Source: a virus
Direction: 5' to 3' (one strand)
Length of the DNA stretch: 21,068 nucleotides
Virus record (IMG/VR): IMGVR_UViG_3300020201_000105
Location: 1-21,068 of that record
This document shows, piece after piece, positions 1-15,115 of this stretch. Numbering within the stretch: position 1 is the stretch's first letter; every line of letters starts with the position of its first letter. A model generated the notes under the pieces. The model saw only the letters and a program-made list of their open reading frames with translations, ran no database searches and was not told the origin of the DNA. The position numbers and the translations under genes are program-made.

Positions 1-2417
1 GCCTGTCCGCTCCAAATCGCCATATCGCCAACAACAACCGTAAATGCCGGGGCTGAACTGAGCGTTAAGTCTGTTGCTGTCGTGCCAACCGCAATCGTTT
101 TAGAGGCGTCATATGAAATCTGATAGATTTCAAACGGAGCAACATAGTCCGCCGTAGTTTGAGTTACAGCTGGGTTAATGGTAGATATGGCCAATGCAGA
201 GGATTCTTCAAACGCATCCGTAATTTTACCACGGAATAGCATTGATATAAGATCGTCGTTAGAGCCAGTGCCACTCGACACTGCACCGCCACCTGCGCCT
301 GATCCGAATCTTACTATGTCGGCATTTTCAATGAGTGGGGAAGCAGACGAGGCAGTTCGCCATTGGGTTGCTGAAAAATATTGCAAAAACACGTACCCAA
401 TCGGCGAGTTTGTTTTTGGGAAAAGAGCGCCGATAACGGCAGGATCTTGTAGTGTTACTAATGCTGCTTCGGCATCTGAGAAAAGAACTTCTATTTTGCC
501 CTCACCATTTAAACTAAAAGACGCAACATAGTAAAAAGTATTCGTTGGTGTTATTGCCCCTATTTCAAAATCGGAAGGAGCTACGCCCACTGGCTGAGCT
601 AGAGCAAAATTAATAGAAGATGTGGGTATATTATACCAAACAGATCCCTGTATGGGTCCAACAGTTTTGTCTGTTCCATCGGCACCCAAAACAGATGAGC
701 TTTCAAAATAAAGACTTTGATCCGCAGCCCCAACATTTGCCCGTGGTCTTAAAGGAGAGTTTGCCTCGGTGTCTAGGGTTTTGATTGCCCTAGTCAGAGA
801 ACCGTCGTTTTCAACAAAACTGTTCCCAGTAGTTGGGTCCATTGGCGATTGAATCGAATACTCTGGAGTCGAATCGGCAGGAGAAGTAGCTCCCATGTAA
901 GCAAGATTTTGGTTTGAGATCCCTTCTCCGATTTCTTGGCTTTCTCCTAGCACCAACTCTTCGCCAAAAAACCTAGCGTAAACGCTGGTATCGGACCTTA
1001 AAAATAACCAGTAAGTACTAGAATCGCTAGGAACTGAGCCCCTAAGAGCCACCTGTACGTGTCTGTCAGTAGAAGGAGCGGCGTTGGTCTGATAGGTCCC
1101 AAAAGCGTAAAAAGAAGCGTCCCCTGTTGCTGGGGAGGTTGCTCCTGAAAAGGCAGCAGTAAGAGTCACCTGAGATATTGAGTTAACTGCGGCAATTTCA
1201 TAATAAGCGTCATCGCCTAGTACTGCAATTCTAATAAAGTCGCCAGCCAAAAGAAGTGAGGTCCAAGAGGCCGCACCTACAGAAGTTACCACTGTGCTGC
1301 CGTTTGTCCATATCAGGTTTGAAGATACGGGCTCATCTCTCACTAGGTTTAGATAGGCGACTTCGTTGGCCGCAAGAGTTATATCAGTTGTTGCATTATT
1401 TGCCAAAATCTTATATGTAAGTGCGCTGCCTACCACCTTCAGGTTAATAGCCGAATCCCAGTTCATCTGACCAGTGACGACAAGAGACGCTCCGCCGTGG
1501 GTTACCGACCCTGTTCCTGTTACTACAGTGTTAACAGCGTCCTCTCTTAAATGTACAACTGAGCCACCACCGCCGCCGCCACCGCTAGCTGAAGACCAAT
1601 AGGCAGTTCCCTTAATTTCCTTAATAGCCGAAAGCATTGCATTTATAAGTTCTTTTAGAGAGCCGATCGACTTGTCACCGCCAACAAACACGTTTGTGCT
1701 AGAGTTGGAGCTGTTTTCTGTGGTTCCGTTTGGAGCCCTGCCTTGAGACCAAGGGTAAGTATATGAAAGATCGGGGGTTTGACCGCCTTCTCCTAGTCCA
1801 AACATGAGGGGTCTTGAGTCGGTTATTGAGACAACACTGTTGTTTACGTCAGTGACCACCTGAGCGATGGGGCAGATTCTCGCTTGAGCTGGGTCTGTGA
1901 AGGGTAGTGTTGATATTGTAATGACGAAATTTAAGGTCCGAGCCAAAGGGACGACTCTGGAAAATTGAGAGTCTGATGCAACGTCGTAAAAATACACGAT
2001 GTCTTCTGTCGTAGGGTCTAAAGTTCTTGAGTAGTCTATTCCAATATAGTTGGTCGTACCTGCGGCAAACGTCCCAGTTACAACACCTGAGTTTAGATTT
2101 CCGTCCAAAACCTCATTTGGGGCATCAAATTCGGTAAGATAAAAGGTTCCTGATGTAACAGAGGCTCCCTGAAAGATCCCTGCGTTAGCTACAATCATCG
2201 CCAAGGCGCTTGCAGGATTGCCTATAACTCCTGTGTGTACGATTGAGAACCCTCTTAGGACGTAAGGGATAGCTATGCCGCTGCTTGGGTCTACATTTGT
2301 TGCAAAAGCGGACAGAAGGGCATTAAAATCCTCTTGAACTGCTGAGTCAACGGCCTTCAGGGTATCCGTATTCACTCTAGACTGACTAAAATATGAATTT
2401 GATCTTATGTTTGCCAT
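1..2417 (-). CDS. Large fibre-like / baseplate appendage protein, N-terminal 805 residues (3' end outside window)
   Basis: The minus strand is open without a stop from an ATG at 2417 to the left edge. The start (MANIRSNSYF) follows AGGA (plus-strand 2425-2428) by 7 bases. The first 278 residues form a separate module ending in a SITDSRPLMFGLGEG segment. Seven consecutive glycines follow (residues 279-285, plus-strand 1563-1583), probably a hinge. Next come Thr/Ser/Val-rich beta segments, including one of the 'GDFIRI...YYEIAAV' type also found in the J protein, and a second Gly-rich stretch (GSGAGGGAVSSG) near residue 705. There is no signal peptide or membrane helix. The composition and position, downstream of the wedge genes, suggest a fibre, fibre adaptor or other virion appendage. 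I recognise no named family, and the product could instead be a structural collar or whisker protein. The coding call is firm; the role is inferred. Confidence 0.8.
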   Translation of the reverse strand, partial: MANIRSNSYFSQSRVNTDTLKAVDSAVQEDFNALLSAFATNVDPSSGIAIPYVLRGFSIVHTGVIGNPASALAMIVANAGIFQGASVTSGTFYLTEFDAPNEVLDGNLNSGVVTGTFAAGTTNYIGIDYSRTLDPTTEDIVYFYDVASDSQFSRVVPLARTLNFVITISTLPFTDPAQARICPIAQVVTDVNNSVVSITDSRPLMFGLGEGGQTPDLSYTYPWSQGRAPNGTTENSSNSSTNVFVGGDKSIGSLKELINAMLSAIKEIKGTAYWSSASGGGGGGGSVVHLREDAVNTVVTGTGSVTHGGASLVVTGQMNWDSAINLKVVGSALTYKILANNATTDITLAANEVAYLNLVRDEPVSSNLIWTNGSTVVTSVGAASWTSLLLAGDFIRIAVLGDDAYYEIAAVNSISQVTLTAAFSGATSPATGDASFYAFGTYQTNAAPSTDRHVQVALRGSVPSDSSTYWLFLRSDTSVYARFFGEELVLGESQEIGEGISNQNLAYMGATSPADSTPEYSIQSPMDPTTGNSFVENDGSLTRAIKTLDTEANSPLRPRANVGAADQSLYFESSSVLGADGTDKTVGPIQGSVWYNIPTSSINFALAQPVGVAPSDFEIGAITPTNTFYYVASFSLNGEGKIEVLFSDAEAALVTLQDPAVIGALFPKTNSPIGYVFLQYFSATQWRTASSASPLIENADIVRFGSGAGGGAVSSGTGSNDDLISMLFRGKITDAFEESSALAISTINPAVTQTTADYVAPFEIYQISYDASKTIAVGTTATDLTLSSAPAFTVVVGDMAIWSGQ

Positions 2418-2424
2418 TCGGTGT

Positions 2425-2428
2425 TCCT
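2425..2428 (-). promoter_or_regulatory. Ribosome binding site of the fibre-like gene
   Basis: Read on the minus strand this is AGGA, 7 bases before the ATG at 2417. It supports that start for the left-edge gene. Confidence 0.55.
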
Positions 2429-2435
2429 GTATGAC

Positions 2436-2453
2436 GCTTTTGCTGTTAAAAGC
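2436..2453. repeat. Short inverted repeat (hairpin) in the divergent intergenic region
   Basis: GCTTTT and AAAAGC flank a 6-base loop (GCTGTT), giving a perfect 6-bp stem. The 8-mer GCTTTTGC at 2436-2443 also has its reverse complement GCAAAAGC at 2499-2506, touching the -35 box of the rightward promoter. This could be an operator pair between divergent promoters. The arms are short and AT-rich, so chance is a real alternative. Confidence 0.3.
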
Positions 2454-2472
2454 AGAATATCTCTCATGTAAA
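2445..2472 (-). promoter_or_regulatory. Candidate leftward promoter for the fibre-like gene
   Basis: On the minus strand TTTACA (plus-strand 2467-2472) and TTTAAC (2445-2450) are 16 bases apart. They match the sigma70 consensus at 5 of 6 and 4 of 6 positions. Transcription would begin near 2438, leaving a leader of about 20 bases with the AGGA site. The -10 box sits inside the inverted repeat at 2436-2453. This is a weak candidate: a late phage gene might instead use a phage-specific promoter or read-through. Confidence 0.3.
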
Positions 2473-2496
2473 GAAGATTACGGTTTTTCGTTTGGG

Positions 2497-2525
2497 TTGC
2501 AAAAGCTAATTAGGGATGATATATT
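2497..2525 (+). promoter_or_regulatory. Sigma70-type promoter for the plus-strand gene block
   Basis: TTGCAA (2497-2502) and TATATT (2520-2525) are separated by exactly 17 bases. They match the sigma70 consensus at 4 of 6 and 5 of 6 positions. The predicted start near 2532 gives a leader of about 24 bases containing AAGGG (2541-2545) before the ATG at 2556. It faces the only plus-strand genes of the window. A host-type promoter would let these genes be expressed independently of the late structural operon. Confidence 0.6.
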
Positions 2526-2555
2526 CACAATAGAAGCAGAAAGGGAAAATCATCG

Positions 2556-2861
2556 ATGGGCAAAAAGAAATTCAACAAAGAAGATGACAGATATCAGAAA
2601 ATGTTTAATGAAAACAAGGAGTTAAAAAGAGAGCTTTCTATTGCAAAAAATCAAATAGAAAGATCTAAAAAGCCCTGCTCTTGCGAACGGCCCCCGAAAA
2701 AGGAAAAAGCAAAAGAGCCCGACCTGATTGTAGAAAAAAGTGAGATCTGTGAAAAATGCGGACTAGAGATGGCTGTAGTCGAATACTCTAAGATAGGGGA
2801 AAGCTGGTTTTTCCTTCGATGTCCTGCAAAACACAGAACTCACGGAAAGAAAATGCCATGA
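2556..2861 (+). CDS. Small coiled-coil / zinc-ribbon protein
   Basis: The product has 101 residues. AAGGG at 2541-2545 precedes the ATG by 10 bases. Residues 1-38 are Lys/Glu/Asn-rich and predicted helical, probably a short coiled coil. A CSC pair lies at 41-43. A Lys/Pro-rich linker is followed by a zinc-ribbon-like half, with C65-x2-C68-G and then C89-x3-H93 (H96 as an alternative ligand). The basic ends and metal-binding knuckle suggest nucleic-acid or protein binding. No enzyme motif is visible and I recognise no named family. It is the first gene of the plus-strand block and its TGA overlaps the exonuclease start as ATGA (2858-2861), so the two are probably translated together. The gene is well supported; the zinc-site reading is inference from Cys/His spacing. 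Confidence 0.75.
   Translation: MGKKKFNKEDDRYQKMFNENKELKRELSIAKNQIERSKKPCSCERPPKKEKAKEPDLIVEKSEICEKCGLEMAVVEYSKIGESWFFLRCPAKHRTHGKKMP
2844..2849 (+). promoter_or_regulatory. Ribosome binding site fixing the exonuclease start
   Basis: GGAAAG lies 8 bases before the ATG at 2858. The alternative in-frame ATG at 2819 has only pyrimidine-rich sequence before it and would overlap the previous gene by 43 bases. This supports 2858 as the start. Confidence 0.5.
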
Positions 2862-3475
2862 ATGTAGTTTCAATAGACCTCGAAATGAATAATCCGACAT
2901 ATGAGCAAAAGATTATCTCCGTAGGCGTTACAGTAGGCAGTCTATATGACAGAACTATTTTGACATCTAAGGACTTTTTTGTGAACCCCAGGGAGCCGCT
3001 GACAGAGTTTATCAAGAAGCTGTGTAATATTAGTCAGGAAACTGTTGATAATGCAAAAGAGCTTCAGGATGTATATCTCGATATATTAAGTTTCATTAAG
3101 CCCTATAGCGCACATAAGACGATCATAGAGTGGGGCACGGGAGACTGCTATACTTTGAGACGCCAGCTTTCTGCTACCGACAGGCCCTACGAGTGGTTTG
3201 GGAGCAGGTCATCGATGAACGTAAAGAACTTAGTACAGGCGCATATGTACGCTGTACAGAGAAAAGCTAAGGGAGGGCTTGAAAAGTCCTTATTGCAATT
3301 TGGCGAATCTTTTGATGGAACGCCGCATTCAAGTGAGGATGACTCTAGAAACACAATGGCTATGTTTTTCAGATACCTAGAGGTACTAGATAAAACCAGG
3401 CTAAAGTCTCAGCAGACTCTTTTGACCTACTACAAGTTTTTAGACTTAGTGAAAGAAATAGACCCAAAATGTTAA
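2858..3475 (+). CDS. DEDDh-family 3'-5' exonuclease (RNase T/DnaQ-like fold)
   Basis: The product has 205 residues, counted from the ATG at 2858 that overlaps the upstream stop as ATGA. All exonuclease motifs are visible. Motif I is SIDLEMN (D7, E9), motif II is WGTGDCYTL (D96), and motif III is H157-x4-D162 within TPHSSEDDSRNT, which defines the DEDDh subtype. The segment around residues 42-63 (FVNPREPLT...NISQETV) matches the usual strand/helix between motifs I and II. Family members remove nucleotides from DNA or RNA 3' ends using two metal ions. No polymerase or helicase domain is attached and the length fits a stand-alone exonuclease. In phages such enzymes serve in proofreading, repair, RNA turnover or nucleotide salvage; the sequence does not decide which. 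It is the second gene of the plus-strand block. Confidence 0.88.
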   Translation: MNVVSIDLEMNNPTYEQKIISVGVTVGSLYDRTILTSKDFFVNPREPLTEFIKKLCNISQETVDNAKELQDVYLDILSFIKPYSAHKTIIEWGTGDCYTLRRQLSATDRPYEWFGSRSSMNVKNLVQAHMYAVQRKAKGGLEKSLLQFGESFDGTPHSSEDDSRNTMAMFFRYLEVLDKTRLKSQQTLLTYYKFLDLVKEIDPKC

Positions 3476-3503
3476 CTATAAACAGCAAGACTAAGAGAAG
3501 TGT

Positions 3504-3716
3504 ATGACTCAGAATAGCGATTTTCCCTTAGAGGTGTTAGAAAAAGCAAAAGATATGGCCCTTAAAATGGTAGGGGAGCCTGTTGAGATTTCAAGTGACG
3601 GCACCCTTTCTTTGGATGGGCTAACTATCGGCATGATTGACTCATATAGCTTAAAAATGGACGACACTGGCGTCGAAGCTTCTGTTTCGATAGAATGGGA
3701 TATCCATGCAAGATAG
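3504..3716 (+). CDS. Small protein of unknown function
   Basis: The product has 70 acidic residues, starting 28 bases after the exonuclease stop. The purine stretch AAGAGAAG just before the ATG may be a weak ribosome binding site. An N-terminal helix (about residues 8-22) is followed by short beta-like stretches (DGTLSLDGLTIG, then GVEASVSIEW). There are no cysteines, signal peptide or membrane segment, and I do not recognise it. It overlaps the next gene by 11 bases in another frame, which supports both as genes of one unit. It does not resemble the RES-type toxins that partner the antitoxin-like domain of its neighbour. Confidence 0.6.
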   Translation: MTQNSDFPLEVLEKAKDMALKMVGEPVEISSDGTLSLDGLTIGMIDSYSLKMDDTGVEASVSIEWDIHAR

Positions 3717-3957
3717 CCCAGAGTTTCTATCATTTTGTCATGCACATAGAATCAAGCCAATTGACGTAAAAGCCCTGCGTATAATGTGGAATAAGATCAA
3801 AAAAACAATGGAATGGGAGGATGAAAAGATTTCGCTTTGGATGGAGTCTGAAAATCCACTACTTGGAGGACTAACCCCCGTGCATCTAATTAGTATCAAC
3901 AGGATTCATAAGCTCGCTAAATTTGTAACCATATGCGTTGAGGAAAATCAAGCCTAA
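3706..3957 (+). CDS. Antitoxin-like small protein, resembles MbcA/ParS/Xre toxin-binding domain (DUF2384)
   Basis: The product has 83 residues. Residues 40-73 match the hallmark of the MbcA/ParS/Xre antitoxin toxin-binding domain: a helix ending in W45, then N50-P51-L52-L53-G54-G55, then T57-P58 and a following helix. In known systems this domain clamps a RES-type NAD-degrading toxin and usually follows an Xre-like helix-turn-helix. Here only about 40 helical residues precede it, too few for a normal DNA-binding half, and no toxin gene lies nearby. It may be an orphan toxin-neutralising domain or a relative with another use. The start overlaps the 70-residue gene by 11 bases. Its TAA (3955-3957) overlaps the TAG of the converging structural gene. 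The gene is well supported; the family call is from motif memory and moderately sure. Confidence 0.65.
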   Translation: MQDSPEFLSFCHAHRIKPIDVKALRIMWNKIKKTMEWEDEKISLWMESENPLLGGLTPVHLISINRIHKLAKFVTICVEENQA

Positions 3958-4373
3958 ACTTCATCCAAGACTTCAAATCCTGCGATTCCTTCAAAATTAA
4001 ATGAAACCCGTAGTATACCTCTAGCGGCGACCGAGTAGCTTCTATCTCCGATAACAGCCTTTGGGATAAAAAGAAGGCTTTCTGCGGTAAATCTATTGTA
4101 GATCCGTATTGAGATATACGGGGCTGAGAAAAAAGCCGTAGCCAAAGGAATGGCTTCGATTCCTTGAAGGCCGCCCGAGAAATTAAGGGTGACGCCTGAC
4201 AAGCTTCCGGATACTCCGTCTGTTGTTTCAATAATCTCCATGGGGACGGGACTGTCAACTCCGTATATTTTTTTAATAGAGTTGCCCATCGTCCAAGACG
4301 CTGCCTGACATTCGTTGTATATTTTTCCGTTGATCTTAATTACAATTAAGGCCCCGTGTACTGTTTGACTCAT
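3954..4373 (-). CDS. Small beta-rich tail/baseplate structural protein
   Basis: The product has 139 residues. I start it at the ATG at 4373, which overlaps the upstream stop as ATGA and has GGGAG 7 bases before it. The longer in-frame reading from 4397 adds 8 residues inside the upstream gene and lacks such support. The sequence alternates short beta strands: an N-terminal ALIVIKINGKIYNE, then MEIIETTDGVSGSLSG, LRVSFNFEG and others, without helices, membrane segments or cysteine pairs. This style is usual for tail-tube-like or baseplate beta-barrel proteins such as the gp19/XkdM class. I infer a tail-tube-like fold, possibly a tube initiator or baseplate adaptor, because a true tube gene would normally sit before the tape measure. 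It is the last gene of the uninterrupted right-to-left operon. Confidence 0.75.
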   Translation of the reverse strand: MSQTVHGALIVIKINGKIYNECQAASWTMGNSIKKIYGVDSPVPMEIIETTDGVSGSLSGVTLNFSGGLQGIEAIPLATAFFSAPYISIRIYNRFTAESLLFIPKAVIGDRSYSVAARGILRVSFNFEGIAGFEVLDEV

Positions 4374-6025
4374 TCGTCTACTCCCGTTTCGCCCCAAACC
4401 CAGAATTTAGAGGAATCTTTTAGACCTTTGGTGCCCGGGTATACGACCGTAACCACAATATTTAGCCCAGCTGCCACAATTTTTTCAATTAATTCGATAG
4501 CAAAAATTCTTCCTGCTGCTGTGGTTGTTACATACCCCTGGTAATCAAAGCCATCAGTTCTTGGTATTACATTTTGCTTTAACGCAAGAGAAACATTTGA
4601 TCCTACAGCGTGGTTTTTTTGAAGAATATAGGCAGGACTAAGCAAAATGCTGCTGTCACTTGGAATATTTAAGTATGGGACTGGACCTTCTTGCTGTACA
4701 GTTCCAAAATCAAGCATCACAAATCCTTCAGTGTCTGGGAAGTCTTCGGTAGAGCTAACAAATAGAATTTGGCCAGTCGAGGAATTAGCCGTCAATTCTA
4801 AAGATCCGTTTGGAGCCAAAAGAGTAAAGTTCTGGCTCTGATCATAGATATACGGCCCAAGCTCATCTTCGGCCACATCGGCTTGATCGTTTAAATACAT
4901 GGCCCCTACACGGTCCCGTCTTATGATCTGACTTGTGGCTGGGATTATAATTTCAAGAAGGTTGGCTTGCGACTGATAAACCGATGCGAATCGAAACTTA
5001 GAAACTATTGTCTTTTTAACAGATTTGTAAAAAAGTACGCTATCTACAGAGGTCTGGACGGCTGAGACGGGAGAGGTAGTTAAATCTATTTTCTCAGATA
5101 GAAAGTTAGTAACAACAAAATAGGCATCTCCAGCGGTATCTGATGGCTGTATCTCTTTAATAGTAAATGTTCCCTGATTCGTATTATTGCTACCGCTTGC
5201 AACGGTTGAGTCGAAGACTGGGTCGTAAATATTAACATAGTCGCCCACTCTTACTCGGCTTAAGTCGGGAAATGCTCCAGAAACCCAAGTGTATTTTGCT
5301 CCGCCATCTACAACGGGATCTACAGACCATCCTGTTCCGACAGACGGGGAAGTGTTAATAATAGAAGAAAATCTTAAAGAGTTTTGAGCCCGACCGCCCA
5401 GTACTTCCACCTGACTTGAAGGACCTAGGGTGTCGCTCTGAAGAATAACAAGGTCTCCAGTTCCATCATTTGAGAGATATGCAAACCCTGTCGTGCCTTG
5501 CTCCCTAAGTCCTTTCACTATCGCATCCGCCACTTCTTGGGCGGTTGCTGCGGCAATGTTTGTAAATTGCCCTGTTGTGAACACGACAGTAATAGGAGCC
5601 TGACCATCAAAGGAAAGGATTAAAGTGTCACCATCTCGCAGTAGATAGGTAGAATAGGCTCCAGAATTCGATGTAGCCGCTGTTGCCTCTGCTCCAAAAA
5701 CAACAGACAAAATCTCAAGTATTAAAGACCTGATCTGTTTTTGATTAATAACAGATATTCCAAGCTCCCTAAATAGCTCGTCAGACAAACCGATCGATGG
5801 AGGTCTTGAGATACCGTACTCGGACATTTTCTGATCAAGATAGTCACCTGACGCGGTAATCAGATAAAACTGGTCATGAATGCTTTCTAGTAAATTAACA
5901 AGAGGAACGGCAACAGACTTGGCTAGGGCTCTTAGAATGATATCTACGTTCCGGCCATTAATGGCTGGAGTAAGATATTTTCTTAGTCTTTCGTACTGCT
6001 CTTGTTCTGTTGTGGACCGAGACAT
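4370..6025 (-). CDS. Baseplate wedge protein, probable partner of the J protein
   Basis: The product has 551 residues. AGGGG (plus-strand 6033-6037) precedes the ATG, and the gene begins 10 bases after the J stop. Residues 1-110 are helical and contain TASGDYLDQKMSEYGISRPP (57-76), a motif typical of proteins encoded next to baseplate J genes. Residues 130-220 form a beta repeat (DGDTLILSFDGQ ... LGGRAQNSLRF) of the kind also found in J. Residues 259-306 form a GDYVNIYDP...TNQGTFTI segment of the second repeat type. The C-terminal 50 residues (ELIEKIVAAG LNIVVTVVYP) resemble the J C-terminal module in style. By position it corresponds to the P2 gpI or Mu gp48 slot, but it is much longer than gpI and I see no convincing gpI motif. 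It probably binds J in the wedge. The role rests on context plus shared repeats. Confidence 0.75.
   Translation of the reverse strand: MSRSTTEQEQYERLRKYLTPAINGRNVDIILRALAKSVAVPLVNLLESIHDQFYLITASGDYLDQKMSEYGISRPPSIGLSDELFRELGISVINQKQIRSLILEILSVVFGAEATAATSNSGAYSTYLLRDGDTLILSFDGQAPITVVFTTGQFTNIAAATAQEVADAIVKGLREQGTTGFAYLSNDGTGDLVILQSDTLGPSSQVEVLGGRAQNSLRFSSIINTSPSVGTGWSVDPVVDGGAKYTWVSGAFPDLSRVRVGDYVNIYDPVFDSTVASGSNNTNQGTFTIKEIQPSDTAGDAYFVVTNFLSEKIDLTTSPVSAVQTSVDSVLFYKSVKKTIVSKFRFASVYQSQANLLEIIIPATSQIIRRDRVGAMYLNDQADVAEDELGPYIYDQSQNFTLLAPNGSLELTANSSTGQILFVSSTEDFPDTEGFVMLDFGTVQQEGPVPYLNIPSDSSILLSPAYILQKNHAVGSNVSLALKQNVIPRTDGFDYQGYVTTTAAGRIFAIELIEKIVAAGLNIVVTVVYPGTKGLKDSSKFWVWGETGVDE
4381..4385 (-). 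promoter_or_regulatory. Ribosome binding site fixing the start of the 139-residue gene
   Basis: GGGAG on the minus strand lies 7 bases before the ATG at 4373, inside the 3' end of the upstream gene. It supports 4373 over the longer reading from 4397. Confidence 0.6.
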
Positions 6026-6035
6026 CTACATACCC

Positions 6036-9000
6036 CTATATTGCGCTAACACTGATATCATTTAGATTTAAGATTCGAGCTTTCTCAGCAGGTCCGATGA
6101 AAATGGTACTGTTAAGAGCATTATAAAGCGGAGACGAAATTGCCACGGCCCTGACGCCTGGTATGCTGTTGACCGCTGATATAATTGAGCTAATAGCAAT
6201 CGGAGATCCAATTGGATTAGAATTAATAACGGAAGCTACGCCTGTTCTGACTCGCTGAACCATGTTGGCAAAACTAACCCCTGTATTAATAGCGACATCA
6301 ATTGACATAGAGACTCTTCTATCTAAAGGAGGCTTTATGTAAATCTCGGCACCTGCGGCTGCCACTCCCGGGTAGGTTAAAACATCTCTTGGATCACCGT
6401 ACACGATTCTATTGCACTCAGCAAGTAGTCCCGTGTTGTACTGATAGCTATCAATTCCATACTTAATAACGGTGTTGAAACCCATTTTATTAGTAGGTGC
6501 GACAACTATATTTGCAATAGCGTTAATCTTGTCTGCCTGATACCGTGTATCAAATACCAAAACCCCTTCTTGGTTTGAATTAGGGTTTGTAGTAACAAGC
6601 AATGTTTTCTTGTAGCCGACGTAGGCCGTGCTTTCGATTACATTAAAGTTAGAAGTATTTTGAGCCAAGGTCACAGAGGAGGCGGCTAGAACCTGTTGAA
6701 TCATAATAGTGTTTTTGCTTAAAACCCGAGACACTCCCCATATTCCTCTGTTGGCCTGAGTTAAGAAATTGCTAGAGATAGATAGAACGTCTCCATCATT
6801 TGTAGCGTTGTATTCAGTACAAGTGATCGTGTTTCTGTGGATTCTCATGTTTGTTCCGGTCACAGTTACAGGGTTTGACTCTGTTACGGCTTCGGGATTC
6901 ATTAGAATTAGAGAGGAAGTTGCTGTGTCAATTCCAACAATTATGTAACTGCCCGTGTTGGATGGAAAGTTACCTGCCCCAAGAATAACTTCGTCGCCAA
7001 CCGACACTATTTGGGCAGCGGCCTGATCTGTTGGGTCGGTAGCTCCAGACAGATATTCTAAAACTAAATAGTTGTCTACGTTCGTTGCGTTGAAGTCAGC
7101 TCCAGCTCCATTATATATAAAGTCGTCTTGGATCGTCAGAGTCTCTTCAAGGGTATTTGCGTTGTAGTAGTAAAGTGAATTCCCAAATCTTCTGATTACT
7201 CGAAAGTCTCCGAGATTCTGAACAGAAAATGAAGGAATCGAGATATTGCTACTAGCCCTAATTGACATAGTGTCCCCTTCCTGAATAGCTTTTTCTATTA
7301 CAAAGTCAGAGGCGACAAATTCAAAATTTGCAAGGAAACCAGAAGCAGGAAGGACATCGACTCTAATAGTATCCTCGGAAGCGGCTATTGCAAAAGTAGA
7401 AGCCCCAGCGTTTCCTTCAACGTAAACAAAGGGATTGGCAAGCGATACGCCGTAGGTAGAGGTCACTCCTGCGATAAGCCCGATTGCTACGGAAAGACTT
7501 TGAGCAGACTCAGCTACAGTTCCGCCGACCGCAAAATCAGTATCAGCAACCAAGACTGTTGCGTTTATTGTAAAGGTATCTCCAGTCTGAATATTTGCAG
7601 TCAACTCAAAAGATCCGCTTGGAAACTGATCAGTAGCTAAAGGGTTTGCAACCTGTAGAATTTGACCGTCGTCTGAAACACCAGTTACTAAAAATGTACC
7701 GTTGTTGTTTGACTCTGGCATGCTGGCTATCGTAACTAAGTCCCCGATATCCACTTCCGTGAAATTGGTCGTTCCTGTAATTACGTAGTTTGCGCTAGAG
7801 CCCACTTTTTCAACATAGACTGTGTCCCCAACCGTAAAGTCAATCTCAGCGGTTGTGCTAAATAGTGGACTAGTTCCGCTTATTCCATCCCAGCTCAAAC
7901 ATGAAAGTAGACCCTGTTTCTCAATCTTAAAAGATCTTCCTCTTGTTCTCTGGTTTGTTCTCTGAATGCCGAATCTTCTTTCTGTTATTGAACTAGAAAC
8001 ACCGAGCGTAACACTTGAATAGCCTGCGATCGGAGAATTTGGGGTAATAGTAACCAATTCGTCGCCAGCCAGTAGCATTGATTTATTTTGCTTGTTCTGG
8101 GCAGTAAGCTTCACAAGCTGATTGCTTGTAAATCCAAGTAAATTTGGATTGCCAATGTACGTGTTAATAAATTGATTGTCAACTACTTGTGACGTATTTA
8201 AAACAGAACCAGAAGCAGAATTTGCAGTTCCTCCGACAATCTGGACGGCTCCTTGGCCCCCTAGAATGTTTGTCGCAAGCTCAATTTTTTTAGTGTTATC
8301 GGACAGACTTACTGTTCCGACACTTGTGATGCCTGAAACCGCCAATATATTAGACAACTCATTTACTTGATTTACATCTGTAGGAACTAGCTTAAGTGGC
8401 TCAGCGGCAAAAAAATTATAACCGACTGCCGAAATTAATGCTAAAGGTCGTTTCAATATAAACTGGGGGACAGGGGATATAGCATCTAGGTCACTACTAA
8501 GAATCCAGTTCACACCATCTTTTAAATATAAAGTATAGTAAGCAAAGGCCGATCCGTCATAAGTAGATCTAGAAATGATTCCAGCTCCAGAAGTTCCATT
8601 GTCATTGACTAGCGTTGCAGAAACTACAGAAGAAACGGAAACAGTTGACGTAACATATGTCACGATTTCCGCAGCTGTGGTGTCCACCGCTCCGTAAAAA
8701 ATAATCGCCCCACCTTCTCTATCGAATTCTTCTTGCCCGTCTCCAGTCGTCCTGTCTACAGAAAAAGAGGTAACTCCTGACGCTGTGACTAGGTAGATTC
8801 CATCGTTTATAAGAGACAGCTCAGATGCTGTAGGGATATTGACATAGTGTCCAACCAAAGCAGGAAGCGTTGGAGCCGACCCCGATGAGTAAGTGTATGT
8901 TAGTCTGTCTGTCCCAACTACTGGAGTATTTGAAGACCTTGTCACTGTCCATCTTGTAGTTGGAAGCAGACCGGGCGTAACATCAAGAGGACCGCTTTTA

Positions 9001-12000
9001 AGACTGATTAGAATTTCTACATTGTCAGAAACGCTTGAAACGCTTGAGATTGCTGCGTTTGCTGTAGATGGATATGTGTAACCTACGTTAACATACTCAC
9101 CAGACTGATCCCATTGCACTGCTCTAAACAGTATAGCAGTTTCGTCAACTGAAGGCACCGTTTGTTTTAGAACTTCTTTGGCTTGCATCAGGACTTTGAA
9201 ATTGTTGAAGCTAAAATCAGCAGGAAACTGGCCGCCAGTTCCAGAAAAAGGAGATGTTGGGGAATTTTCAGAGTCATAGGCATTAAACTGTGTCGTGCTT
9301 GAAGGGACTCCAGAGTTTGTGGCTGCCCCTCTATACATAGGCATAACAAAAGTTTTGTTTACAGCGTCGTTGTCCAAAACTACGACCAATTTATCAGCAG
9401 GTCCAAAGCTAAGGGGCTCTGCAATATAAAATCTGTCGGCTCCGCCGCCTAACGATGCTACTCTAAGTCTTTTGACAAAAATATCGTCTTCTAAAGTAAG
9501 GCCGCTAGCTAAATAGTCATTTAAGAAAGTTTGTTCGTTTGGAGATAGTGTATCTAGGATAGCTCCATATGGCTCAAGCATTCCAATCGTGTAGTTTGGA
9601 TGTAGGTCCAATGTAGATAGGTTTATGGCAGAGGTCATCTGGTTTACGCCATCAATATATGAGACAGGAGGACTGGCAACTGCTCCCAGTGTTATAAAAT
9701 TAGAGTGAATAAAAGCAGGGTATACCCCATCTTCGTAGTCAGACTGATAAAACGCAACTAGGGATTCAGTATTTTCAGCTTTCTGGCCTGTCAAGAAACC
9801 TAGTGGTCCCATGTTTGAGGCAACGGCTGCGATTAAAATTGACCCTGATATAGATCGGGTAAGGGTTGTGACTGTTAGGTATGTGTTGTCAATAACCGAG
9901 AAGTTGACTCCATATGTCTCAGAATTAAGAAGGGCGGCTGCTGCCGACAATGTAGCAATAGTTCCTGCTGGAAGCCTGAATCTTTCAGGCACGTTTGACG
10001 TTCTGATGAAGGTAATACCTGCCTGATACGGGGATTGTGCGCCCGTGACAGCGGCGGTAAACTCAGCAGCGGTTACGGTTATTTCAAACCAGTTAAACGT
10101 GGCATCAACAGCCGAGACTCTTGCTTCAAATCTGTTCGTTAGGTCTAATTCGTAAGACCAAAGAATCACGTAATCGCCCATTAAAATATTGCTAAAATTA
10201 CCAAGTCCTGTTTCATACCTAATAGTGTTCGCTACGGGCTTAGACACAGTAATGACAGCATTGCCTACGATATTGCCTGCAATCACCTCAGCGTTTAAAT
10301 CATCTGCAACTATCCATAAACTTTGAGACAGACTTCCAGCCGTACTTCCGATGTTTACTATTCCACCAGAAATAAGAGAACCGATCACGGTGGCTTCAGT
10401 TTGAAAAATACCGGCAGACAAAGAGTCCCCAGCAACTAGAGGTTCGGTTAATGTTATTTGGGCAGTATTTCTTGAAAGAGTATAGTCAGACGTTCTTCCT
10501 TGAGCGAAAAGATCTTCGTTGTCAAAAAGACCCTTAGTTACTAATGTAGAAGAAACAGAAACTTGAACACTGGCCTGATCACTGAAGCCCCTGTTTGAAG
10601 TAAACTGAATAGAAGAGCCTAGTTGTGAAGCTGTGACTCCTGCTATCCGTGAATTAAAAACATTGATCCATGACTGTAGGGAATTTGAAGAAGAGACCGT
10701 GGAGTAAGTTCCCTCGTTTATAAAATCTTGGTTTGTAATAATGTAAGTGACCGAAGGAGTTCCGTCAACTGCTAAAATAACAGTGTCTCCTGTTACGATT
10801 GCACTACTCCAGTCAGCCTGTGGGTTCCCCACAATTTCTGCTAAAAACCCATCTTTTATTAAAAGCTCATCGTTCTTATAGAGTCTGAGTGTTTCTGCTA
10901 AATTGGACGGGAATCCTAAAATAGGTGCTGCATCCACGCCTGTCGTTGGTGAAATTTCAATATAGTCAAAGCTTTCGGCCTTGGCTTTAATAACAACCTT
11001 AGTTCCACCAGAGGCCGTAGTCGCTTCATATAGAAGTGGATTGTCAGCGTTAATAGAAGAAACAACTTCGTATGCCGTTGCTCCTCCTGCGCTTAGAAAA
11101 TTAGAAGAAGAAAAAGCATGAGTCGATACGATACCGCCGACAACAACGGAAAGGTTCTCCCCGCCAAAAAGAGCAAAAGGAGAAAGTAGGCTTGTTTGAA
11201 GATAGGCTTTTGTAATAGAGGTCTGTCTGCCGCCGCACTGAAGTTGAAAATTTCTCTCGCCGCCGTAAGCTGAATCGACTAGATCTTCAATTCCTACCCC
11301 TGCGTTTTTTTCTTCGTAAGTAGCGCCATTGTCAATATAAAGAGTTGTTACTCCTGCTGCTGTGATGATCGAATCAGCGACAACAGTTTCGGACTCGTCA
11401 ACAGGAGAAGCTCCAATAACTGAAGCCTTGATAGCCGTAGCCGTTCCTAGTCCTATTGATTGACGAGCTAGCTTTATTCTCGCTCTAAGTTGATCGTCTG
11501 TCTCAGTGGATCTTCCGTCTGTGAAAGGTAGGGGGTTAGTAACAGTAAGGTTTGCACTGGGAGGATTGACAAATAGCTTGATCGCTCCAGCAGGGGCGTT
11601 TCCTTGCAATCCAATCTCTGAACAAGCAACTTGGACACCTGTAACCGTGGTCTCTCCATCTAGGATGATAGCTTGAGGAGAAACACTAAAGTTTACTTCG
11701 GCAGAAGCTCCCGAAGCAGGGGCTTGAACTACCGTATTAACAGGAATAGTTCTGACGCCACCCTGAGCAAGAATCACGCTTTCGTTGTTATTGTGGTATC
11801 TGGTTGTTGGGTTGGCAGGATTTAGGGTAAGCACCCAGTAAGATCCCTGCTCTACTTTTGAGATGTATGCAAGTGGACCTTCTGAGTTTGAAGTACCTCT
11901 TCCTAAGTAAACCGATCCAGTAGCAGTAAATAAAGAAGCGTCTGAAACGTATATGATTGTAGACCCAATGTTTGGGGCAGACTGTCCTGAGTAAATTTTA

Positions 12001-12320
12001 GTTGATTTTTTGGTAAAGCTTGTGTCAACAATTGTGATATTTCCGCTAGCGACTTTTGCGGAAACTAATCTTAGATTCTCATCTGCCGCAATTCTTTGCA
12101 GCGAATCTGAAGTCGCCCTGTCAACAGAGTTGTCTTTTAGAATTTGGATGGCATCACCAGACGCTCTGGCAGTAGTCAAGGCAACAGTTTCAAAAAAAGA
12201 TGTAACAGCAGACCCAACATTTAGATCATTGATCCCAGTTCCAGAAAGGTATGCCGCTAAAAGGTCACCTAAATATTGATCATAACTTTGAAGGACTGGT
12301 ACATTGTTTTCGTTTGGCAT
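6036..12320 (-). CDS. Giant baseplate J-like protein with a beta-repeat expansion
   Basis: The product has 2094 residues; ordinary baseplate J proteins have roughly 350-500. AAAGGA (plus-strand 12325-12330) precedes the ATG by 4 bases and overlaps the previous stop. The N-terminal core (about 1-330) has the J signature TNPLPFTDGRSTETDDQL at 261-278, followed by RARI. The C-terminal core (about 1960-2094) has the other J hallmark: GAEIYIKPP, a VSMSIDVAIN strand, a helix, then SSIISAVNSIPGVRAV. Roughly 1600 beta-rich residues separate the two halves. They contain at least two repeated motifs. One is 'GD.V.I ... NNGTFLV.GV ... NP' (about 715, 1157, 1525, 1775, 1842). The other is 'GD...V.G......F......A......I' ending in LGF or similar (about 388-473, 510-597, 1303-1396, 1570-1650). 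J proteins build the wedge ring around the hub and control sheath contraction. No internal stop or frameshift was found. Confidence 0.92.
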   Translation of the reverse strand: MPNENNVPVLQSYDQYLGDLLAAYLSGTGINDLNVGSAVTSFFETVALTTARASGDAIQILKDNSVDRATSDSLQRIAADENLRLVSAKVASGNITIVDTSFTKKSTKIYSGQSAPNIGSTIIYVSDASLFTATGSVYLGRGTSNSEGPLAYISKVEQGSYWVLTLNPANPTTRYHNNNESVILAQGGVRTIPVNTVVQAPASGASAEVNFSVSPQAIILDGETTVTGVQVACSEIGLQGNAPAGAIKLFVNPPSANLTVTNPLPFTDGRSTETDDQLRARIKLARQSIGLGTATAIKASVIGASPVDESETVVADSIITAAGVTTLYIDNGATYEEKNAGVGIEDLVDSAYGGERNFQLQCGGRQTSITKAYLQTSLLSPFALFGGENLSVVVGGIVSTHAFSSSNFLSAGGATAYEVVSSINADNPLLYEATTASGGTKVVIKAKAESFDYIEISPTTGVDAAPILGFPSNLAETLRLYKNDELLIKDGFLAEIVGNPQADWSSAIVTGDTVILAVDGTPSVTYIITNQDFINEGTYSTVSSSNSLQSWINVFNSRIAGVTASQLGSSIQFTSNRGFSDQASVQVSVSSTLVTKGLFDNEDLFAQGRTSDYTLSRNTAQITLTEPLVAGDSLSAGIFQTEATVIGSLISGGIVNIGSTAGSLSQSLWIVADDLNAEVIAGNIVGNAVITVSKPVANTIRYETGLGNFSNILMGDYVILWSYELDLTNRFEARVSAVDATFNWFEITVTAAEFTAAVTGAQSPYQAGITFIRTSNVPERFRLPAGTIATLSAAAALLNSETYGVNFSVIDNTYLTVTTLTRSISGSILIAAVASNMGPLGFLTGQKAENTESLVAFYQSDYEDGVYPAFIHSNFITLGAVASPPVSYIDGVNQMTSAINLSTLDLHPNYTIGMLEPYGAILDTLSPNEQTFLNDYLASGLTLEDDIFVKRLRVASLGGGADRFYIAEPLSFGPADKLVVVLDNDAVNKTFVMPMYRGAATNSGVPSSTTQFNAYDSENSPTSPFSGTGGQFPADFSFNNFKVLMQAKEVLKQTVPSVDETAILFRAVQWDQSGEYVNVGYTYPSTANAAISSVSSVSDNVEILISLKSGPLDVTPGLLPTTRWTVTRSSNTPVVGTDRLTYTYSSGSAPTLPALVGHYVNIPTASELSLINDGIYLVTASGVTSFSVDRTTGDGQEEFDREGGAIIFYGAVDTTAAEIVTYVTSTVSVSSVVSATLVNDNGTSGAGIISRSTYDGSAFAYYTLYLKDGVNWILSSDLDAISPVPQFILKRPLALISAVGYNFFAAEPLKLVPTDVNQVNELSNILAVSGITSVGTVSLSDNTKKIELATNILGGQGAVQIVGGTANSASGSVLNTSQVVDNQFINTYIGNPNLLGFTSNQLVKLTAQNKQNKSMLLAGDELVTITPNSPIAGYSSVTLGVSSSITERRFGIQRTNQRTRGRSFKIEKQGLLSCLSWDGISGTSPLFSTTAEIDFTVGDTVYVEKVGSSANYVITGTTNFTEVDIGDLVTIASMPESNNNGTFLVTGVSDDGQILQVANPLATDQFPSGSFELTANIQTGDTFTINATVLVADTDFAVGGTVAESAQSLSVAIGLIAGVTSTYGVSLANPFVYVEGNAGASTFAIAASEDTIRVDVLPASGFLANFEFVASDFVIEKAIQEGDTMSIRASSNISIPSFSVQNLGDFRVIRRFGNSLYYYNANTLEETLTIQDDFIYNGAGADFNATNVDNYLVLEYLSGATDPTDQAAAQIVSVGDEVILGAGNFPSNTGSYIIVGIDTATSSLILMNPEAVTESNPVTVTGTNMRIHRNTITCTEYNATNDGDVLSISSNFLTQANRGIWGVSRVLSKNTIMIQQVLAASSVTLAQNTSNFNVIESTAYVGYKKTLLVTTNPNSNQEGVLVFDTRYQADKINAIANIVVAPTNKMGFNTVIKYGIDSYQYNTGLLAECNRIVYGDPRDVLTYPGVAAAGAEIYIKPPLDRRVSMSIDVAINTGVSFANMVQRVRTGVASVINSNPIGSPIAISSIISAVNSIPGVRAVAISSPLYNALNSTIFIGPAEKARILNLNDISVSAI

Positions 12321-15043: not shown

Positions 15044-15115
15044 CAATTATAAGATTACGAGTTTGAAAAAAGCCCTGCTAAGAAATGCAAAATAAAGGAT
15101 AACTATTTGTTTTAA
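15044..15115 (-). other. Intergenic gap inside the structural operon
   Basis: This is the only sizeable gap in the minus-strand operon and is AT-rich. On the minus strand it contains AGCAGGGC followed by six T, but no stable stem fits before the T-run, so I do not call a terminator. A TATAAT (plus-strand 15046-15051) lies only 2 bases before the next ATG, too close to act as a -10 for that start. No ribosome binding site is visible, so how the downstream gene is initiated is unclear. Confidence 0.4.

Follow-up and report, generated by a model that had tools for sequence, protein, structure and literature searches.

The present analysis identified a small block of four plus-strand genes, orfA-orfB-orfC-orfD, lying between the last gene of a baseplate run (g139) and a fibre-like gene in the viral record IMGVR_UViG_3300020201_000105 from IMG/VR, of which positions 1 to 21,068 were analysed (this whole stretch of 21,068 nucleotides is called the window below). 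The explanation that best accounts for the data, and that as a whole we consider probable, is that the block is a clade-specific, moron-like cargo island, which would be expressed as a unit from its own promoter, has orfA and orfB as its core, entered the lineage at the root of the clade of the window phage or close to it, and has since had genes added and lost, orfC and orfD being recent additions. The features on which the argument is based are as follows.

3-2417, minus strand: fibre-like gene, truncated by the window end; its N-terminal 278 aa are 37% identical to the product of Mx1 139197-141188
2474-2480, minus strand: TAATCTT, late-type element upstream of the fibre gene at a distance of 56 bp from its start codon
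2497-2525, plus strand: candidate sigma70-type promoter of the island, TTGCAA-17-TATATT with an extended -10 (TGATATATT); score 10
2556-3957, plus strand: the four-gene island
2556-2861, plus strand: orfA, 101 aa, N-terminal coiled coil and C-terminal zinc ribbon according to the family alignment
2858-3475, plus strand: orfB, 205 aa, predicted DEDDh 3'-5' exonuclease, Eri1/KapD-like
3504-3716, plus strand: orfC, 70 aa, gene-call score 15.7
3706-3957, plus strand: orfD, 83 aa, solitary domain resembling the toxin-binding domain of Xre/MbcA/ParS (RES-type) antitoxins
3954-4373, minus strand: g139, final gene of the baseplate run, homologue of Mx1 138748-139170 (27% over 131 aa, E 5e-14)
4370-6025, minus strand: baseplate wedge gene upstream of g139, 36% identical to Mx1 135800-138748 (PHROG baseplate wedge, 6e-5)
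6036-12320, minus strand: baseplate J-like gene, 35-41% identical to Mx1 baseplate J
15051-15057, minus strand: late-type element TAATCTT just upstream of the baseplate gene g905

The island is read in the opposite direction to all ten other gene calls in the window, which are on the minus strand (g432, g652, g353, g92, g448, g905, J of 2,094 aa, wedge, g139 and the fibre-like gene). The stop codon of orfA and the start codon of orfB overlap as ATGA, orfB and orfC are separated by 28 bp, orfC and orfD overlap by 11 bp, and orfD and g139 converge with overlapping stop codons at 3954-3957. The G+C content of the island (0.404) is lower than that of every other 1.4-kb segment (n = 334, minimum 0.418). 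Since the window contains antisense ORFs as long as 117 aa elsewhere, ORF length alone is weak evidence for genes; the presence of four plus-strand genes inside a minus-strand late operon, as originally noted, was confirmed by the ORFs together with the gene calls, the Pfam match of orfB, the family of orfA and a weak Pfam match of orfD (7e-4). The call of orfC comes from codon and RBS scoring only, and no match to it was found in phages, IMG/VR or the clade loci. Profile searches against Pfam, PHROG and NCBIfam gave a structural-type assignment for none of the four proteins, which bears out the expectation that the contents are non-structural, and an Rfam search found no RNA family.

The window phage is a large Mx1-like myovirus. 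Myxococcus phage Mx1 (OR576727.2) was the one annotated phage found to match most of the baseplate genes, and its late region has the same order of g905, J, wedge, g139 and fibre. Mx1 differs from the window in having no island between g139 and the fibre gene and in carrying 12 annotated genes on the opposite strand between g905 and J (123822-129929; L005); the annotations in this run include a nicotinamide phosphoribosyltransferase and a nicotinamide-nucleotide adenylyltransferase, an NAD+ rebuilding pair. As for g139, it is probably a tail-tube-like baseplate protein, because its profile additionally picks up the gene that follows the tail sheath, both in Mx1 (42239-42700; 5e-13) and in a second genome, G009.

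The baseplate J-like gene was used as the marker for finding and ordering relatives. Scanning with an alignment of four J sequences yielded 70 IMG/VR loci, and peptide-pattern scans with orfB, the wedge protein or a two-sequence J alignment yielded no viral relatives. Genes in the relatives were called with a simple script, which recovered most of the annotated Mx1 genes over the stretch used for comparison, missed some genes (e.g., exonucleases overlapping g139) and possibly misplaced some starts; many of the loci end before reaching the fibre gene. In Mx1, g139 and the fibre gene are adjacent, with a gap of 26 bp. A contiguous junction was also observed in L054, L058, L061-L065, L070 and L078, as well as in two contigs from bacterial bins, L010 and L011. 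The latter are Mx1-like contigs binned in Saccharibacteria and Elusimicrobia MAGs, and their host assignment is doubtful. The expectation that the flanking genes would be adjacent in island-free relatives was thus borne out in Mx1 and at least nine others, all outside the clade of the window phage.

In a tree of J (58 rows), the scored island carriers all fall in one clade of 36 rows with an SH-aLRT of 100, and L032 is the sole scored member of that clade without an island. Two changes explain the presence and absence of the island on this tree, a count to which L075, which was scored as empty but ends just after g139 and is really unscored, cannot add changes by its omission. As L032 lies inside the clade, a single gain followed by a loss accounts for the pattern as well as two separate gains do. 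Opposite-strand genes are rare at the other baseplate junctions (4/66 for g905/J, 3/64 for J/wedge and 0/52 for wedge/g139), some of these being single weak calls. Because the junction is empty outside the clade and filled inside it, the island appears to be an insertion inherited in one clade with changing contents, and it would have entered between g139 and the tail-fibre gene on the strand opposite to both.

When the island proteins of the relatives were clustered into families, they comprised the zinc ribbon (orfA), the DEDDh exonuclease (orfB), an SLT lytic transglycosylase, a metallophosphoesterase and many singletons, with DNA ligase, LAGLIDADG and HNH genes occurring once each. The core consists of orfA, usually together with orfB, and the remainder is variable; a fixed set of the same four genes in all relatives was not what we found, as orfC and orfD occur nowhere else. 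Several relatives have an additional late-strand gene of about 246 aa interposed at the island, and part of the island is inverted in L034. In a sister group without the orfA family, the same fibre-side position is occupied by another small protein, which ends in a C-terminal zinc-binding motif (L030 11987-12400, L031 17874-18218).

The long opposite-strand runs between late genes in Mx1 (the g905-J run and 80951-121310) suggest another origin, namely that the island is a piece of an opposite-strand early/middle gene set moved by rearrangement and not acquired cargo, which is possible but on balance unlikely. Ligase, phosphoesterase and exonuclease are all nucleic-acid genes, and in G009, outside the clade, a homologue of orfB lies on the opposite strand just past the fibre region (162783-163352, minus strand, in L164); this gene is also a possible source of the exonuclease of the island. 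However, the island is small and sits at one preferred junction, homologues of orfA and orfB were not found in Mx1, and the homing endonucleases and singletons in the island are typical of cargo.

For the preferred reading, a cargo island, morons provide the closest concept. They are inserted in an operon when relatives are compared, have variable gene sets and no function in morphogenesis or lysis, and are usually independently expressed (PMC2629481). The island is likewise inserted into an operon on comparison of relatives, and its gene sets vary; the SLT lytic transglycosylase in the islands of relatives bears on the absence of lysis functions. An own terminator is usual in classic morons; the definition in PMC2629481 does not demand one. 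No terminator bounds the island, and no plus-strand terminator-like site was found between 3957 and 5948. The original description of the block as a moron therefore holds for the insertion and the variable contents and does not extend to a terminator, and "moron-like" is a fair term since the flanks are adjacent in relatives and the contents vary.

A comparable case is the "ant moron" of P22-like phages, located between gene 16 and the tailspike gene 9 (PMC2629481). Both lie just before a tailspike or fibre gene at the end of a late operon, are absent in some relatives and replaced by other gene sets in others, plausibly after one ancestral insertion followed by changes; the ant moron takes no part in virion assembly, and the island genes of the window probably take none either. 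They differ in that the genome here is that of a large Mx1-like myovirus and not a temperate P22-like phage, in that the ant moron encodes repressors and an antirepressor whereas the island encodes a nuclease, a zinc ribbon and an antitoxin-like protein, and in that the island has one gene, orfA, conserved across the clade. In P22, late RNA polymerase running through the ant moron has been suggested to influence the tailspike level (PMC2629481), and a similar effect is possible in the window phage.

Concerning the exonuclease, orfB matches Pfam RNase_T with 41.7 bits (cut-off 24; 2e-10), and the catalytic residues D7, E9, D96, H157 and D162 are invariant in 13 aligned sequences. Its nearest solved relatives are ERI1 structures (profile match 2.7e-13), and its nearest NCBIfam family is KapD (7.6e-10, below the KapD cut-off). 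It shares all five DEDDh residues with the Eri1/KapD-like exonucleases and differs from them as a small single-domain phage version with predicted activity, whose role in the infected cell is probably to trim the ends of RNA or DNA. Homologues were detected in about 20 loci and not found in the clade genomes G001, G006 and G010. Relatives also occur in Synechococcus phage B23, LR756504 and Dolichospermum phage Dfl-JY45, where the other three island genes are not nearby.

The exonuclease had been proposed to form a functional pair with the antitoxin-like protein, for counter-defence or superinfection exclusion. A dedicated pairing is not supported by the relatives, in which about 20 loci have the exonuclease but not orfD, its neighbours there being genes for a ligase, a transglycosylase or a phosphoesterase. 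Superinfection exclusion proteins are usually membrane- or surface-located, and the four island proteins are without a membrane-like segment (highest 19-residue mean hydropathy 1.01), which speaks against that function.

Counter-defence as such is compatible with the preferred reading. In this proposal orfD would mimic an antitoxin, with no toxin of its own, and would neutralise RES-type (NAD+-degrading) toxins of the host by binding them during infection, with the other genes accessory; we regard it as rather unlikely, and as a lead that comes from orfD alone. The protein matches PF09722 over the toxin-binding core NPLLGG-TP that it shares with Xre/MbcA/ParS antitoxins (E 7e-4, 19.9 bits), nearly as well as does the protein it resembles in Stenotrophomonas phage S1, gp26 (2e-4, 21.9 bits), which is encoded upstream of a gene annotated as a RES family protein; both scores are below the cut-off of 24.5. 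A match to the NCBIfam Xre_ParS antitoxin family was also obtained (0.004). The orfD match, however, is below the curated cut-offs and covers 24 residues only. In contrast to Xre/MbcA/ParS antitoxins, orfD is without a helix-turn-helix (no HTH family match in Pfam or NCBIfam) and without an adjoining toxin gene: its neighbours are orfC and g139, and no toxin-like family match was obtained among the window proteins scanned. A fold search with its predicted model, a single-sequence model of low confidence (pLDDT 63), gave no significant match, and the antitoxin fold was not found. Relatives of orfD with which co-occurrence might be tested were absent from the IMG/VR scan, phages, clade loci and plasmids.

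Antitoxin mimics do exist in phages, as AdfB of phage ICP1 is an antitoxin-type protein with a demonstrated function in countering DarT (PMC11481870). It shares with orfD the idea of a phage-borne antitoxin without a toxin; orfD belongs to another family and is known from its sequence, whereas the function of AdfB was demonstrated. Being one of two window-only genes in a variable island would suit a counter-defence gene, and a broader proposal, that orfD blocks host NAD+-degrading RES toxins and that the g139/fibre junction is a general counter-defence swap site beside a conserved zinc-ribbon gene, appears quite improbable.

How the island is expressed was considered from its upstream sequences. 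The sigma70-type site at 2497-2525, the sole candidate for the host-type promoter that had been claimed, is well placed and contains TGATATA; by count it is not above chance, as 31 promoter-like sites were found in the window against 32.8 expected. TGATATA, which resembles a portion of an extended -10 promoter, is enriched upstream of the genes of relatives (e.g., 15 occurrences where 1.0 would be expected); the enrichment was observed upstream of several gene classes in G001, G002, G003, G007 and G010. Upstream of the transglycosylase sub-block in the relatives, sigma70-like promoters were found in 9/13 cases (0.3 in shuffles) and the late-type element in 0/13. In this phage the island is most likely one unit, transcribed separately from the late operon by means of the extended -10 promoter of the host sigma70 type.

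A second motif appears to serve the late genes. The AATCTT core has two intergenic copies only in the window, upstream of the fibre gene and of g905, both on the minus strand, and the latter element also precedes the g905 homologues in G007 and G010. Between the genes of relatives, CAATCTT is enriched (12 copies for 1.9 expected in one case, 13 for 2.3 in another) and is mostly oriented toward a nearby gene start. Across the family the element precedes virion genes (J, g905, fibre and sheath), and the nine sites in Mx1 are all on the late-gene strand. In Mx1-like phages the distance from the form [CT]AATCTT, after which T/A is often found, to the virion gene that it reads toward is roughly 4-60 bp. 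Based on its sequence context, this motif (YAATCTT) is likely a late-type promoter element. It was found upstream of the fibre gene in 15/18 scored regions, window included (shuffle mean 1.1), and in the window the fibre gene beyond the island is most likely restarted from its own element. As no terminator bounds the island, late antisense read-through would be expected, and late RNA may run antisense through the island genes.

The same element precedes orfA in 17/20 scored regions (shuffle mean 1.7), the window being one of the three exceptions, with a sigma70-like extended -10 site only. This indicates that orfA may be late in relatives, so that early expression should not be presumed throughout the family. 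Its protein has a predicted helix at 8-38 and a beta hairpin at 73-88, and its metal motif is CxxC ... C-x3-H in the window and CxxC ... CxxC in most relatives. The family is present once per record in 18/18 clade records, one of which has a second, very weak match, and no strong match was found in outgroup records. In this respect orfA is conserved like a core gene and unlike classic cargo, which counts against the cargo reading. Its near-universal presence, its promoter-proximal position at the fibre side, and the inverted late-type elements that face orfA and fibre in many relatives could mean that orfA is a zinc-ribbon coiled-coil regulator, that the divergent promoter region shared with fibre controls late or fibre expression, and that the remaining genes are passengers. 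We consider this very improbable, given that the window orfA is without the late-type element and that family and fold searches gave no known family and no significant structural match beyond the coiled coil. A role of orfA as sole reader of the element was rejected, since Mx1, G012 and G013 have no orfA and are nevertheless enriched in the element or close variants of it.

The island defines an insertion hotspot, with empty versions and more than 20 filled ones, in a large phage family with one annotated isolate, Mx1. Cargo sites of this kind are already known, and the present one adds a case from a phage family that has received little study. Accessory and host-interaction functions may well be sought among the genes at such sites, and the toxin-less, RES-antitoxin-like protein orfD is a candidate for assay. 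The family-wide late-type element YAATCTT would make the timing of gene expression testable throughout these phages.
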